Positions 3,210-34,356 of a DNA stretch of 34,356 nucleotides are shown piece by piece (positions within the stretch are counted from its first letter, which is position 1; each line of letters starts with the position of its first letter). Under the pieces are notes generated by a model. It ran no database searches, was not told the DNA's origin, and worked only from the letters and a program-made list of their open reading frames with translations. Source of the stretch: a virus; IMG/VR virus record IMGVR_UViG_3300022701_000405, positions 1 to 34,356 of that record. One strand, given 5' to 3'. The translations under genes and the position numbers were made by a program.

Positions 3210-3679
3210 TTGAAGAGTTCCAAAAAATGTTAGAAGAATCAGAAACTGGAAAACAACTTGATATCCCTGCAATGGTTAGGTGGTTACTTCGGAAAGGAAT
3301 TGAATATGCGGGTGAAAAAAACTTAACACGAGAAAAAATTGCAGAATTGATGTCCCAAATCATAGGACTTGATAAAGATAAAAAGATTACAAAAACAATG
3401 GTGGATAAATGGACAAGGGAAAAGAATCCAGTTCGTTTTCCCTTGGAATTTTCTCATGCCTTTTGCATCGCGACTGAAGATTATCGTCTTGCGTGCCTCA
3501 TCCCTCACATTCTCGGACTAAAAGTATTAGAAAATGAGAAAACTTTGCGAACTCGTCTTGAAAAGACAGAATTAATAATAATAGCTGCACAAAGAAAAAT
3601 GAAAATACTTCGAGAGCAATTAGAAGAGCTGAAAGATAAAAAGGATAATTTAATACCTATTTTTAAATTGGAAGCATGA
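3200..3679 (+). CDS. Early phage protein with putative DNA-binding domain and coiled coil
   Basis: This is a 159-residue protein. Residues about 40-75 (starting LTREKIAELMSQIIG) look like a helix-turn-helix in which the second helix includes ITKTMVDKWTRE. They are followed by a conserved-looking segment with RFPLEFSHAFCIATEDYRL, and the last 50 residues are a predicted coiled coil rich in Glu, Lys and Leu. From memory this order (HTH, RFP...FC..T, coiled coil) resembles a family of early proteins in B3/D3112-type transposable phages, of unknown role. It is coupled to the next gene by an ATGA overlap at 3676. Confidence 0.75.
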   Translation: MSMIEEFQKMLEESETGKQLDIPAMVRWLLRKGIEYAGEKNLTREKIAELMSQIIGLDKDKKITKTMVDKWTREKNPVRFPLEFSHAFCIATEDYRLACLIPHILGLKVLENEKTLRTRLEKTELIIIAAQRKMKILREQLEELKDKKDNLIPIFKLEA

Positions 3680-4362
3680 GTAAAAAAAAGATTGAACAAA
3701 TAAAAATAGAGAAATCTTTTTATGGTCCCCCACCTTTTTTGGAAATTATAGTAGGGAAGCGAAGTGGAAAGTTAAAACCACTCATGGAAAAAATATTACA
3801 AAGGAATAATGGGATGATTTCTCCGATAAACAAAGGCAAAAGAAATTGTAACTGCAATAACGTATATTTTGGGACATATCAAAATCAAGAGACTCTTGAA
3901 GTTCCCGGCTATAACATACCTTTTTTCCCATCAAAATGCATAACTATACCAATAAGCACAAATACAGATATTAAGGAGGATAGAAAAATGGGCATACATA
4001 GTACAGGCCTATATTATCTCGATGTAGAGCGAAAATCGGTTCTTTTGCTTGATAATAATCCATTATTTCATGCCTCTCTTGCAGAAAAAATAACCGGGAT
4101 GCAAGAGAAAAAAATCAAACAAATCTCGGAAAAGAAAGAGTTTCAGTCTCACGTCGTGTTGATACGAGATGAAATGTACTTTGACCGCACCGGCGTATTT
4201 TTAATTGCATTAAAATCAAACTCGAAAAGAGCACGAAAGTTTCAAATTGGATGCGCAAATATGATGGTGGATATGCTATTCAGTTTCGATGGCTTACTTC
4301 TCGATGAAGAAACTCTTGACCCGATTAGCAAGAGGGTTAAAGAACTTTGTACCGTTGAGTGA
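3676..4362 (+). CDS. Rha-like phage regulatory protein, long form with internal start
   Basis: The full frame is 228 residues. The C-terminal 124 residues have the layout of phage Rha/ANT-type regulators: a short strand region, a helix where the partner is probed, then YFDRTGVFLIALKS and a helical KARKFQ-like end. A very strong ribosome site (AAGGAGGA) sits just before an in-frame ATG at 3988, so a 124-residue short form is likely and may even be the main product. It would match in size the paralog at 11110. The 104-residue N-terminal extension has a CNC motif and no domain I know. The ATGA overlap with the gene before supports translation of the long form. Confidence 0.65.
   Translation: MSKKKIEQIKIEKSFYGPPPFLEIIVGKRSGKLKPLMEKILQRNNGMISPINKGKRNCNCNNVYFGTYQNQETLEVPGYNIPFFPSKCITIPISTNTDIKEDRKMGIHSTGLYYLDVERKSVLLLDNNPLFHASLAEKITGMQEKKIKQISEKKEFQSHVVLIRDEMYFDRTGVFLIALKSNSKRARKFQIGCANMMVDMLFSFDGLLLDEETLDPISKRVKELCTVE
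3970..3990 (+). promoter_or_regulatory. Internal ribosome binding site inside the Rha-like gene
   Basis: TTAAGGAGGATAGAAAA leads directly into an ATG at 3988 in the same frame as the long gene. It is one of the best SD sites in the early region, much better than that of the long form, and predicts a separate 124-residue protein. Confidence 0.7.
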
Positions 4363-11109: not shown

Positions 11110-11493
11110 ATGAAACAAAACACAAATGATAGTAATGAAGTAAGGAGTAAAGATGTAAGGAGTAGATCGGTCCTTCTGGTAGAAGGAAGCCCATTATTCC
11201 ATTTTTTATTGGTCGAGTCTTTTCTTGAAATATCACAAGAAAAGATTCAAGAAATCGTTAATCAAAATAAGATGATCGCTTTTTATTGTAAGGATATTAA
11301 CCAGGAAAGGTACATTGATATGAGTGGATTTATTCTATTGGCAATGGAACTCGACACAAAACCTGCAATTGATTTTAAGAAATGGGCTAAAGAAGTGTTA
11401 TGGTTGAATATTTATAATCCCCCGGAAATTTTGAATGAACTTAAAGGACCACATAAGAAAATCCAAGAGTTAATTCAATTGAGATGGGAATAG
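11110..11493 (+). CDS. Rha-like phage regulatory protein, paralog of the 3676 gene
   Basis: This 127-residue protein is preceded by TTGGAGGTAAA. It shares its plan with the C-terminal 124 residues of the gene at 3676: an SVLLVEGSPLFHFLL segment equivalent to SVLLLDNNPLFHASL there, a helix ending in an Ile-Gln/Lys-rich stretch, then RYIDMSGFILLAMEL equivalent to MYFDRTGVFLIALKS, and a C-terminal helix. That order is typical of Rha/ANT-like phage regulatory domains. The two copies in one phage probably arose by duplication and divergence. The target is unknown. The stop codon uses the first G of the ten-G run. Confidence 0.65.
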   Translation: MKQNTNDSNEVRSKDVRSRSVLLVEGSPLFHFLLVESFLEISQEKIQEIVNQNKMIAFYCKDINQERYIDMSGFILLAMELDTKPAIDFKKWAKEVLWLNIYNPPEILNELKGPHKKIQELIQLRWE

Positions 11494-11502
11494 GGGGGGG
11501 GG
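11493..11502 (+). repeat. Run of ten G directly before a start codon
   Basis: Ten consecutive G occupy the whole gap between the stop of the Rha-like gene and the ATG at 11503, in otherwise AT-rich DNA. Such tracts slip during replication. Here a length change would alter the ribosome site and spacing of the ClpP-like gene, and possibly the stop context of the gene before. Confidence 0.8.
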
Positions 11503-12060
11503 ATGAAAACGATTGTTTATGAAAGAGATATAGACAATACTGCCTTCGTAGGTTTAATAAAACAAATAGAGGCAAGTAAAGAAGAAAACGAATTTACTAT
11601 ATATTTTGCATCACGTGGTGGTCATTATGATGCGATGGAATGTATGGTACATTACTTCGATTCTTTAGCGGAAAGGGGAAAAAAGATTAAACTTGTAGCT
11701 TTTCACGAATTATCAAGCGCAGCATTTATATTATTCTTTAGTGCAAAAGTAGATAGGGAAATTCTTAACACTGCTTTTAGCGTAATACATCTGCCTGTAC
11801 TCGATGCAAATAGTGTCCAAATTGCAAATGATGAAAAGATTTTTATGATGAAAGAACATTGTGAGAAAGACCAAGTTTCTATTATACAATGGTTCTCCTC
11901 TTTAGGCTTTAGTGAAGAAGAGCTGCGGCAGGTTTTATACTTTAAAAATGTGATTTTCGATTCAGAGAGATTAAAAAAAATCGAACCTCATGAATATAAA
12001 AAAATTAACAAAGAAAATTTGCCGGAAAGAGTAAAAAACGTTCTTAAAGATATGAGGTGA
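11503..12060 (+). CDS. ClpP/SDH-fold serine protease-like protein
   Basis: This 185-residue protein has features of the ClpP/crotonase-like fold. FASRGGHYDAME (35-46) matches the ClpP SPGG oxyanion loop region. AFHELSSAAFILF (66-78) matches the nucleophile elbow, with S71 aligned to the catalytic Ser. VIHLPV (94-99) matches the catalytic His (H96) loop. The third residue of the triad is not obvious. ClpP-fold proteases serve as prohead proteases in many phages, but this phage already has a Mu I-type protease in the head block, and this gene lies in the middle region. It may process a regulator or host protein, or have lost activity. Only the G-run acts as its ribosome site. Confidence 0.75.
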   Translation: MKTIVYERDIDNTAFVGLIKQIEASKEENEFTIYFASRGGHYDAMECMVHYFDSLAERGKKIKLVAFHELSSAAFILFFSAKVDREILNTAFSVIHLPVLDANSVQIANDEKIFMMKEHCEKDQVSIIQWFSSLGFSEEELRQVLYFKNVIFDSERLKKIEPHEYKKINKENLPERVKNVLKDMR

Positions 12061-12062
12061 AA

Positions 12063-12248
12063 ATGAATATATATCTTATCGGAATTGGATTTATCCTGGG
12101 TATTGTTACCCAGGCACTATCTGAATATCTATCGAGAAAAATTTTTTCTTATATTTCAAAAGGTCTTTTAGTTATTGTTAAAAAAAATGAAGATAATGAA
12201 GATAATGAAGACAAAAACATTAAAGCAATTTGCGAGTGTTCATCTTAA
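12063..12248 (+). CDS. Small membrane protein
   Basis: This 61-residue protein starts at the ATG at 12063 after ATGAGGTGAA, overlapping the ClpP-like gene's end region. One membrane segment lies near residues 3-20 (IYLIGIGFILGIVTQAL). The cytoplasmic part ends in an acidic repeat (EDNEDNED), encoded by a 9-base tandem repeat near 12189-12211. It is the last gene before the terminator. Function unknown. Confidence 0.6.
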   Translation: MNIYLIGIGFILGIVTQALSEYLSRKIFSYISKGLLVIVKKNEDNEDNEDKNIKAICECSS

Positions 12249-12288: not shown

Positions 12289-12327
12289 GCGGGCAAAGCC
12301 GGGGTGGTTTTTGCCCGCACCTTTTTC
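12289..12327 (+). terminator. Rho-independent terminator of the early/middle operon
   Basis: GCGGGCAAA (12289-12297) pairs perfectly with TTTGCCCGC (12310-12318) around a 12-base loop, followed by ACCTTTTT. It separates the middle genes from the lysis and head genes. Confidence 0.88.
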
Positions 12328-12856: not shown

Positions 12857-13039
12857 ATGGAAGAAGTCCTCAAATTTTTAATTGATACTTTGCATAAGTA
12901 TTTCTTTTCTATTGATGCCAAAAAAAGGAGGATATCAAGTGAGTATAAGAAAAAACTCCAGGAAATCGGAAATGCAGTTGATAGTAATGTTGGTGATATT
13001 AGCCGGATTTCTCACGACGTGCTCAACTCTGGGTTGTAA
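12857..13039 (+). CDS. Small overlapping ORF in the lysis cluster
   Basis: This 60-residue frame has its ATG one base after the holin-like stop, in a purine-rich context. It overlaps the start of the lipoprotein gene by 101 bases in another frame, reminiscent of nested Rz/Rz1 genes. However, its N-terminal hydrophobic part (VLKFLIDTLHKYFFSI) is amphipathic rather than a clear membrane anchor. It may be an inner spanin remnant or simply the leader through which the next gene is translated. Confidence 0.4.
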   Translation: MEEVLKFLIDTLHKYFFSIDAKKRRISSEYKKKLQEIGNAVDSNVGDISRISHDVLNSGL

Positions 13040-13337
13040 AACTACTGCGAACTCTGTTTTTCTTGAAGACTGGGAGTATATTAAAACGAGTCCTGATTAC
13101 CCAGATTCCTATATCATCCATGTTAAGAATTGGGAACGGGCCCAGGAGAGGCTTAAAGAACTTCGGACCGAATTGGATATTGAACATACTGATAGTACCG
13201 ATTTTACCTTATTCCCTTCTCCTTCAGAGAATTATTATATAGTAAAAAGGAAAATATGGAAGAGGTTCCTGGAAGAAGTAGAGAGATTAAAAGCTAAGAA
13301 AAAACTAAAAAGCCTCGATACAGAATCGCTTGAATAA
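12939..13337 (+). CDS. Probable lipoprotein, o-spanin (Rz1)-like
   Basis: This 132-residue protein begins with GTG at 12939, chosen because AAAAGGAGGA lies six bases upstream. The N-terminus has a basic stretch, a hydrophobic core (LIVMLVILAGF) and a lipobox LTTC with Cys28 as the likely lipidated residue. The mature part is a charged helical protein with many Glu/Lys/Arg. In lysis clusters a lipoprotein of this sort is usually the outer-membrane spanin, which would imply a Gram-negative (two-membrane) host. It is longer than Rz1, so it could also be a unimolecular or accessory lysis lipoprotein. Confidence 0.6.
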   Translation: MSIRKNSRKSEMQLIVMLVILAGFLTTCSTLGCKTTANSVFLEDWEYIKTSPDYPDSYIIHVKNWERAQERLKELRTELDIEHTDSTDFTLFPSPSENYYIVKRKIWKRFLEEVERLKAKKKLKSLDTESLE

Positions 13338-18811: not shown

Positions 18812-19078
18812 ATGAAAACATTTAAAAACATCCAAAACGCCTTCGTTCATTTGACACATGGAATTTTTCCGTTTATTTGGAAAGAAAGAATTCATTCAAA
18901 GGACGATGGCGATCCAACTCCCAGGCAAGAAAAAATTCTAGAAAAAACTGGTGATAATTATTTAACCCATTTTCTGTTAAATATCTTTCTCGCCTTTAAT
19001 CATTTGAGTGGGACTTATAAAAGTAAAGTTCCAGTCCGATTAAGTAAAAAGAGTCGGAAAAGTCAGAGACAAAGATGA
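18812..19078 (+). CDS. Small protein of unknown function
   Basis: This 88-residue protein starts at the ATG at 18812 after TGTGAGGTGAA, a ribosome site nearly identical to those at 10110 and 12052. It is basic, with a strongly Arg/Lys/Ser-rich C-terminus and moderately hydrophobic segments that are not long enough for clear membrane helices. Its stop overlaps the protease start by ATGA. Function unknown. Confidence 0.5.
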   Translation: MKTFKNIQNAFVHLTHGIFPFIWKERIHSKDDGDPTPRQEKILEKTGDNYLTHFLLNIFLAFNHLSGTYKSKVPVRLSKKSRKSQRQR

Positions 19079-20178
19079 CTGACAAAGAGTTTGTAAATTT
19101 AAAAGAAGCAATGAAAGAAGGATATTTCACTTGCTTCCGCACTGGAGTATGGACTGACTCAAAAGGAAAACAGCATAATATTACCCAGGGTGATCTTGAA
19201 GCAATAGAAAAAAAATTCAATACCTCAGCAGAAAAAAAACCACCACTGCTATTTGGGCACAAGGGTAAAGAGGAAAAAGGAAAGATATCACAGCTCCGGC
19301 GATTAGGCGATTACCTCTTGGCTAAAGCTGTCGATGTTAAAGATAATATCCTGGGAAAAATTAAAGAGGGTGCACTGAAGTTCGTATCCTTAGCTATAAA
19401 TCCAGAATCTGAAATAGAGCATATTGCCCTGACAAATACTCCAGCCGTTGAAGGGCTTCTCCCTCTTCAAGGGGCTTTCTCCAAGACGGAAGCTTCCGGC
19501 ATCGAAAAAAGAATAATCCTTTTCCAATTCGAATTGACGCCGGCAGCCGAAAATTTTTCAAATGATTTTTTTGTTCCACTCCTGGAGGAGGAATCAACTA
19601 AAGAGTTTCAAAAAACAGATATAAAATTCAATCAATATAAGGAGGTAAAAATGCCTGAAGATGACAAAGGCAATGTCAAAAAAAACAGTCCGCCGGATTC
19701 GGATTCTCCAGATAAAGCGGAATTTGAGAAAAGGCTCTCCCTTGCTGAAGAAGAAAAAAGGGTAGCCTTAAAAAAAGCAGAGGATGCCCAAAATAAATTA
19801 GCTGAATTTCAGAAAAATCAAAAAATTGAAGGTATCTCTGCTTTTACTAAAAAAATGGTTACCGAGGGTAAGCTATTCCCTAACGAGGTTGAAGAATGGA
19901 AAAATTATCTTCTCCAATTAGACTACGAAAAAAGCCACCACTTCTCTAAGGAAAAAACTCAAACACAATATGAATTCATAACTGATTTTATTTCCAAATT
20001 AAATAAACGAATTCCACTTGAGAAAATTGATGTAACAACAGAGACAAAAACAAAGCAAGATGCTTGCTTCTCCCGAATTAATCCCGATGATGATGACTTG
20101 GAAAGACATGAAAAAGCCCTGGTATTAATGAAAGAAAAAGGAGTCACTTATGGGGTGGCTCTGGCTTTATTGGACTAA
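19075..20178 (+). CDS. I: Prohead protease with C-terminal scaffold (Mu gpI-like)
   Basis: This 367-residue protein has an N-terminal protease domain (about 1-150) with the Mu I pattern: LLFGHKG (His62), LKFVSLAI (Ser105) and the conserved ALTNTPAVEGLLPL segment. It processes the scaffold and head proteins during assembly. Residues about 193-367 are a charged, coiled-coil scaffold region, ending in a short conserved-looking helix. A strong internal ribosome site at 19639-19650 allows the scaffold part to be made alone, exactly as Mu gene I produces the scaffold Z. The gene precedes the major capsid gene as expected. Confidence 0.88.
   Translation: MTDKEFVNLKEAMKEGYFTCFRTGVWTDSKGKQHNITQGDLEAIEKKFNTSAEKKPPLLFGHKGKEEKGKISQLRRLGDYLLAKAVDVKDNILGKIKEGALKFVSLAINPESEIEHIALTNTPAVEGLLPLQGAFSKTEASGIEKRIILFQFELTPAAENFSNDFFVPLLEEESTKEFQKTDIKFNQYKEVKMPEDDKGNVKKNSPPDSDSPDKAEFEKRLSLAEEEKRVALKKAEDAQNKLAEFQKNQKIEGISAFTKKMVTEGKLFPNEVEEWKNYLLQLDYEKSHHFSKEKTQTQYEFITDFISKLNKRIPLEKIDVTTETKTKQDACFSRINPDDDDLERHEKALVLMKEKGVTYGVALALLD
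19651..20178 (+). CDS. Z: Internal in-frame scaffold protein (Mu gpZ-like)
   Basis: An ATG at 19651, inside and in frame with the protease gene, is preceded by ATAAGGAGGTAAAA, the best ribosome site in the head region. Translation from it gives a 175-residue, highly charged protein with a central coiled coil (about residues 22-60). This is the shape of a capsid scaffold needed in many copies, while the full-length protease is needed in few. The arrangement is known for Mu I/Z. Confidence 0.82.
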   Translation: MPEDDKGNVKKNSPPDSDSPDKAEFEKRLSLAEEEKRVALKKAEDAQNKLAEFQKNQKIEGISAFTKKMVTEGKLFPNEVEEWKNYLLQLDYEKSHHFSKEKTQTQYEFITDFISKLNKRIPLEKIDVTTETKTKQDACFSRINPDDDDLERHEKALVLMKEKGVTYGVALALLD

Positions 20179-34257: not shown

Positions 34258-34356
34258 ATGGCTCTCACCACCCTTACCAAAAGCGGCCTCTCCCTGGCTA
34301 AACTGGAAAAATTCCGCCTCCAATTTATCGACGCCCTAAAAAATATCGCCCTCAAT
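34258..34356 (+). CDS. 5' end of probable tail fibre gene (cut by window)
   Basis: An open frame begins at an ATG after AAAAAGGAGAAATAA and runs off the window after 33 codons. The protein begins MALTTLTKSGLS. By position after the hub and tip genes it should be the tail fibre or receptor-binding protein. Its base composition changes abruptly: about 48% GC here with many C-ending codons (CTC, ACC, GGC, GCC), against roughly one third GC in the genes just before. This suggests acquisition from another source. Confidence 0.6.
   Translation, partial: MALTTLTKSGLSLAKLEKFRLQFIDALKNIALN

Follow-up and report, generated by a model that had tools for sequence, protein, structure and literature searches.

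Which role can a ClpP-like protein have in a Mu-like phage that encodes a head maturation protease of another type elsewhere in its genome? The question is raised by P0001, the 185-amino-acid product of an ORF in the window analyzed here, which is the whole 34,356-base stretch and spans all of a virus record that is linear and perhaps a fragment.

Position of the ClpP-like gene

The phage is of the Mu-like transposable type. Its landmarks are given below; MuB-like and Gam-like ORFs, named from sequence and gene order and with relatives of MuB found, lie in their usual places.

5841: MuA
9384: GemA-like gene (Pfam E 3.2e-4, below the cut-off)
11110..11493, plus strand: gene for 127 amino acids, weakly Bro-N-like (E 0.012, below the cut-off), 9 nt 5′ of the ClpP-like ORF
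11493..11502, plus strand: run of ten G immediately 5′ of the ATG of the ClpP-like ORF (final base of the stop codon of the preceding gene and nine G)
11503..12060, plus strand: ClpP-like ORF, open from ATG, product P0001 (185 amino acids)
12057..12248, plus strand: ORF for 63 amino acids overlapping the stop codon of the ClpP-like ORF, with a hydrophobic N-terminus (membrane helix by eye)
12289..12318, plus strand: terminator-like hairpin, perfect arms of 9 bp followed by a T-rich stretch, ending the gene cluster
15741: Mu portal protein fused with an F-like domain
19075..20178, plus strand: Mu I-type head maturation protease (phrog_976, E 1.7e-31; Pfam Mu-like_Pro, E 5e-5)
20191: capsid E-type protein, with the Mu I-type protease just 5′ of its gene

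The original prediction had named a separate Mu I-type protease at 19075, and the phrog_976 match confirms this; the Mu-like_Pro match of the same gene reaches 23.4 bits, just below the cut-off of 25.2. The gene cluster is unidirectional and runs from the MuA/MuB/Gam/GemA side, with the ClpP-like gene at its end, and because of this gene order early or middle expression of the ClpP-like gene is likely. The hairpin (fold z −2.29, with a fold equalled by 7 of 200 shuffles) stands between the ClpP-like gene and the terminase and head genes, and is followed on its 3′ side by lysis-like genes, named by eye, and then by the terminase. No promoter is claimed, because the sites found by a sigma-70 scan were about as numerous in shuffled sequences (54 versus 59.0 in shuffles); a terminator scan likewise gave numbers close to those of shuffles (15 sites versus 12.5), a shorter form of the hairpin being among its sites. 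Directly before the ATG, the ordinary ggagg motif is absent and the G10 tract is found instead. When the window was shuffled 200 times with its dinucleotides preserved, 7 shuffles contained a run of at least ten G or C. The tract could be a translation switch prone to slippage, or else a mistake of assembly.

Several observations concern the record as a whole. Both of its ends look incomplete. The left end (1-1968) has about 27% GC, which suggests host DNA, and is perhaps, even probably, host DNA beside the integrated phage; it holds a 440-amino-acid permease-like ORF, named by eye, for which searches of Pfam, of plasmids and of one phylum (344 genomes) gave no match. At the right end, a gene start with visibly higher GC (34259-34356) is interrupted by the end of the record. 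An ORF at 12882-13337 in the lysis-like region shows, by eye, a signal resembling that of lipoproteins (LTTC / TLGC), a hint that the host has an outer membrane. The products of 3676-4362, in the left early region, and of 11110-11493, just 5′ of the ClpP-like gene, are related (34% identity over 76 amino acids, E 4e-11 in a single comparison).

Homology to ClpP and search for relatives

The ORF at 11503-12060 is genuine, and its product is distantly related to ClpP. Pfam CLP_protease (PF00574) matched P0001 at E 1e-3 with about 19 bits (18.8-19.5), short of the cut-off of 20.2, and this signal is little above noise because an unrelated RRM domain comes next at E 0.004. The NCBIfam Clp subfamily PRK12553 matched at E 4.1e-5 with 23.3 bits, far below its cut-off of 228. 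PHROG 11747, which elsewhere matches several sites in other genomes that are also CLP_protease-positive, matched at E 0.0012 (2.1e-5 in another search). Searched alone against the PDB sequences, P0001 gave no ClpP match up to E 10, nor did it match anything in PADLOC.

The resemblance to ClpP is above chance level. With an HMM built from 44 ClpP-like sequences, P0001 scored 20.1 bits and ranked top among the 41 genes of the window, the next scoring 6.6; none of 2000 shuffles of P0001 reached this score, the best attaining 10.3. An HMM of canonical ClpPs only gave just 12.8 bits. In profile-profile comparison, P0001 alone aligned with the ClpP profile over 114 columns (probability 66.3, E 5.5e-5). 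Homology to ClpP over the catalytic domain is thus detectable by both methods, and the ClpP-type homology originally proposed is borne out. P0001 is a ClpP relative, yet we did not file it as a ClpP, because it does not reach the score cut-off and lacks both the catalytic Asp and the N-terminal docking part.

By sequence, the best-scoring relative of P0001 that we found is gp084 of Cellulophaga phage phi4:1. A viral structure search with P0001 listed an uncharacterised 162-amino-acid phi4:1 protein at rank 8, and a phmmer search of the phi4:1 ORFs of at least 80 amino acids identified gp084 (162 amino acids, E 4.2e-5), which is AGO49497.1, the protein of PHROG 32912, and has no annotated function. 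P0001 matched PHROG 32912 itself weakly (E 0.033; 6.1e-4 in a genome search). The local alignment of the two proteins scored 82, whereas shuffles averaged 32.6 (sd 5.3) and none of 1000 reached it; by shuffle z, gp084 is no closer to P0001 than one cellular ClpP, L195, is (9.3 vs 9.4). Both phage proteins are small and have in common the YFA[S/T]xGG and ME motifs, the Ser, HL and K[N/D]VI, whereas gp084 is 23% identical to P0001, has Asp instead of N149 and is encoded by a 146-kb phage, with genes for helicase, recA and thymidylate synthase in its neighbourhood.

A profile of P0001 and gp084 found P. falciparum ClpP (2f6i) as its best PDB sequence (E 0.0033; the next at 0.39), and it aligned with the ClpP profile over 135 columns (probability 89.5, E 2e-6), a result reached by 0 of 200 column shuffles. 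This signal comes mainly from P0001, because gp084 alone gives no match: it is absent from the ClpP HMM matches up to E 1 and reaches E 0.089 with the ClpP profile. Against five ClpP-like proteins its shuffle z ranged from −0.1 to 1.4. By itself, the gp084 link is weak evidence for ClpP. The protein matched PHROG 26024, ‘protease’, at E 2.3e-5, and no meaningful Pfam family; a match to the PADLOC model PRTase_III-A (E 3.5e-4) was not used as evidence. In the phages collection, its relatives were confined to the phi4:1 and phi17:2 records (7 records). In the genomes tried, PHROG 32912 gave no matches at ClpP: besides the window it had one weak match, at E 0.4, in 7 records, and it matched 1 of 14 controls. 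The link to P0001 gives this unannotated family a tentative function.

Close relatives of P0001 were not found in phages by tblastn up to E 1. Pattern scans with P0001 yielded 5 stretches in the viral contigs and 32 in the genome contigs, none of them confirmed, and a scan with the alignment of P0001 and gp084 yielded 66 viral stretches, likewise with 0 confirmed. Among the ORFs of at least 60 amino acids in 165 loci, none resembled P0001 (best phmmer E 1.6). Two further sets of candidates were rejected: 4 weak matches (E ≤0.01) in 344 genomes of the phylum of the Treponema MAG behind L147 are about at chance level, and the frames matched by a two-row profile at E ≤0.001 in 1 of 395 and 1 of 398 genomes of two other phyla look unrelated.

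For rarity, we considered the window together with 49 of 80 MuA-related IMG/VR records, many of which are perhaps fragments. None of the 49 had a CLP_protease match at E ≤0.01, and the window alone did, its match being itself below the cut-off; the ClpP-like gene is therefore uncommon in phages of this kind (1 of 50 records). Canonical ClpP is common in viruses: relatives of cellular ClpP are encoded by 253 of 254 IMG/VR pattern stretches, of which 80 were kept. As a side observation, locus L216 (8433-10391; genome G071, contig C4) encodes a 185-amino-acid ClpP-like protease (PF00574, E 1.3e-14) whose gene immediately follows those of a Cys-rich peptide with CXXX repeats and of a radical SAM/SPASM maturase-like protein. 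These genes may form a cluster for a peptide natural product that includes a ClpP-type peptidase.

Active site and N-terminal end

The residues that correspond to the ClpP active site are encoded at the following positions.

11611..11622, plus strand: SRGG, residues 37-40, counterpart of the SPGG oxyanion loop of ClpP (Pro to Arg)
11713..11718, plus strand: codons of S71 and S72, candidate nucleophile
11788..11790, plus strand: codon of H96, counterpart of the catalytic His of ClpP
11947..11949, plus strand: codon of N149, which pairs with an Asp of phi4:1 gp084 in the pair alignment

The catalytic Ser and His stand at ClpP positions, within HELSSAAFIL (residues 68-77) and VIHLPV (94-99), and the register of the nucleophile is uncertain by one residue. 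S71, assigned as the nucleophile at the outset, was picked by the canonical profile and preserves the Ser-to-His spacing of 25 found in ClpP, where we take S97-H122 to be the pair of the E. coli enzyme. S72 was picked by four other alignments, and S72 and H96 form invariant columns among 28 sequences. The assignment of H96 stands, and that of the nucleophile becomes S71 or S72. The proposed correspondence of SRGG to the SPGG region also holds, with the proline replaced by arginine.

The remainder of the active site is altered. At the position of the catalytic Asp, P0001 has N149 in the gp084 pair alignment or K148 in the ClpP profile alignment, and in a third register the Asp column of ClpP faces a gap; the Asp is absent in all three. 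The glycine-rich stretch that follows the His in ClpP (GGxxGQAxD) reads VLDANSVQIAND in P0001. Taken as sequence changes, those in the Asp, GGxxGQAxD and SPGG elements are compatible with loss of activity. The absence of the Asp may represent decay, because gp084 has Asp in the N149 column. That Ser and His have been kept at only 19-28% identity to 27 aligned ClpPs is a hint that the active site is under selection; the viral, phage and genome searches yielded no orthologue close enough to show such selection.

A single-sequence model was poor (mean pLDDT 52.2) and ambiguous: Foldseek ranked the first ClpP 27th (E 0.16), and in VIA-align the best Z was 6.3, to other folds, vs 5.0 for the first ClpP. 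A second model, folded with an alignment of 27 viral ClpPs, reached a mean pLDDT of 73.8, with 77-94 per ten-residue block over residues 1-90 and low confidence beyond about residue 98, in the C-terminal half. For this model Foldseek listed ClpPs, and residues 1-98 superposed on ClpP residues 26/27-124/125 (Z about 12, rmsd about 2 Å, about 94 residues), the best 50 rows all being ClpP; a long helix spans residues 102-133. Because it was given ClpP sequences, the model leans towards ClpP and indicates compatibility, not proof. The superposition on ClpP proposed as a check was obtained for residues 1-98 of the ClpP-guided model, and the unguided model is ambiguous; absence from a list of folds was not taken as evidence.

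Residue 1 of the P0001 model corresponds to about residue 26 of ClpP. The N-terminal elements with which ClpP contacts the unfoldase, an axial loop and the first helix, are lacking in P0001, and they are truly missing, because the protein starts at this position and its reading frame comprises only 188 codons from stop to stop. Neither this gap nor the replaced Asp featured in the original prediction. Since the axial region is absent, P0001 is unlikely to dock on ClpX or ClpA.

Alternative readings and comparison with known systems

We tentatively read P0001 as a minimal, highly divergent homologue of the ClpP-fold serine peptidases, predicted to be weak or inactive and with improbable unfoldase docking, and give this reading a probability of roughly 45%. 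P0001 is probably either a pared-down peptidase or a decoy. P0001 would be made from the end of the early or middle gene cluster and, without the axial region, would hardly dock on ClpX or ClpA. ClpP-like rings, if formed, would have a wide pore through which peptides or loosely folded proteins could enter without an unfoldase. Catalysis would fall to Ser71 or Ser72 and His96, supported weakly by Asn149 as the third residue or by none, and the resulting low peptidase activity may be directed at early phage or host proteins. By analogy with PpClpP1 of Pseudomonas plecoglossicida, P0001 would assemble into an open ring with weak peptidase activity. A bolder version, that an unfoldase-independent family of minimal ClpP-fold peptidases acts early in unrelated phages (this Mu-like phage and phi4:1) by cutting host or phage regulators, with the G10 tract tuning expression here, is a long shot.

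A less likely alternative is an inactive ClpP-fold pseudo-peptidase, which would bind, for instance, into host ClpP rings or occupy a partner. It remains a serious rival, given the changes in three conserved features of the active site: Asn or Lys occupies the Asp position, SPGG has become SRGG, and the glycine-rich stretch after the His is lost. Mixed rings with an Asn-bearing subunit also exist; in Listeria, ClpP1 has Asn instead of Asp and its active triad is aligned only in complex with ClpP2 (PMC9765437). The retention of Ser and His at ClpP positions in so divergent a protein speaks against an inactive protein, and the same divergence, together with the absent N-terminal region, makes mixing with host ClpP doubtful.

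It is improbable that P0001 serves as an additional protease of morphogenesis or of the scaffold, produced together with the structural proteins. Head proteases of the ClpP fold do occur, as in the Mu-like Flavobacterium phage fF4, where the Clp/prohead protease ORF29 is described between the terminase ORF27 and the capsid ORF30 (PMC7761591). Here, however, the place just before the capsid gene is already taken by the Mu I-type protease, and the ClpP-like gene lies about 7 kb upstream of it, before the hairpin, the lysis-like genes and the terminase, and not beside the portal or capsid genes. A head role is therefore unlikely, as the original prediction had held.

We also consider it quite unlikely that P0001 is a crotonase-superfamily fold protein without a protease role. 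Several other alpha/beta folds fit the single-sequence model at least as well as ClpP does, and the RRM domain follows CLP_protease closely in Pfam, but the Pfam and NCBIfam matches at E ≤1e-3 are Clp proteases, and Ser and His occupy ClpP positions. Nor did any crotonase or serine dehydrogenase proteinase (SDH) family (presumably PF00378 and PF01972) match P0001 in Pfam up to E 1, a range in which filters drop most matches above 0.1; the profile search proposed for the ClpP and SDH families returned ClpP, below cut-offs, and listed no SDH family within that range.

Very unlikely, finally, is a full ClpP-like subunit working with host ClpX or ClpA, for example in clearing the phage repressor: the Mu repressor is a known Clp target and viral contigs carry canonical ClpP (253 of 254 pattern stretches), but P0001 begins at about ClpP residue 26 in a frame that cannot be extended, and the missing axial loops and replaced triad acid weaken the connection to Mu and ClpXP suggested earlier.

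Phage-encoded ClpPs have been described in several settings: use against host proteins has been proposed for those of jumbo phages (PMC7824862), the freshwater phage P26059A carries clpP (PMC5964084), and some V. harveyi prophages carry ClpP (PMC12482185). The literature that we met interprets phage ClpPs as head proteases, as host ClpP copies or as anti-host weapons; among the matches listed, titles and abstract openings mention no ClpP-like protein outside the head genes of a Mu-like phage. The fF4-type prohead protease resembles P0001 in being a phage-encoded ClpP-type protein, as described (PMC7761591), but it sits in the head region, where the present phage has its Mu I-type protease. Canonical ClpP (PF00574), phage-borne copies included, shares with the ClpP-guided P0001 model the fold of residues 1-98, the positions of Ser and His and the long helix, whereas P0001 is without its N-terminal axial region, its Asp, the proline of SPGG and the GGxxGQA stretch.

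Among the systems compared, PpClpP1 (PDB 9UXT) offers the analogy on which the open-ring proposal draws. This protein lacks the N-terminal helix, has the triad Ser73-His96-Pro151 and a pore of 42.7 Å, and forms a weakly active tetradecamer; it cannot work without its Ser and His, and its low activity is not mainly due to the third residue (PMC12900304). Like P0001, it is without the N-terminal region and has Ser73 and His96 where P0001 has S71 or S72 and H96, and Pro151 where P0001 has N149. Unlike P0001, it is the product of a cellular gene with a solved tetradecamer and measured activity, and its likeness to P0001 is one of features. A truncated bacterial ClpP whose triad is altered has already been published, as have ClpPs of phages, so that P0001 is a variant of these; as a ClpP-fold protein outside the head genes and without the docking end, it would test a ClpP chamber that lacks an AAA+ partner.
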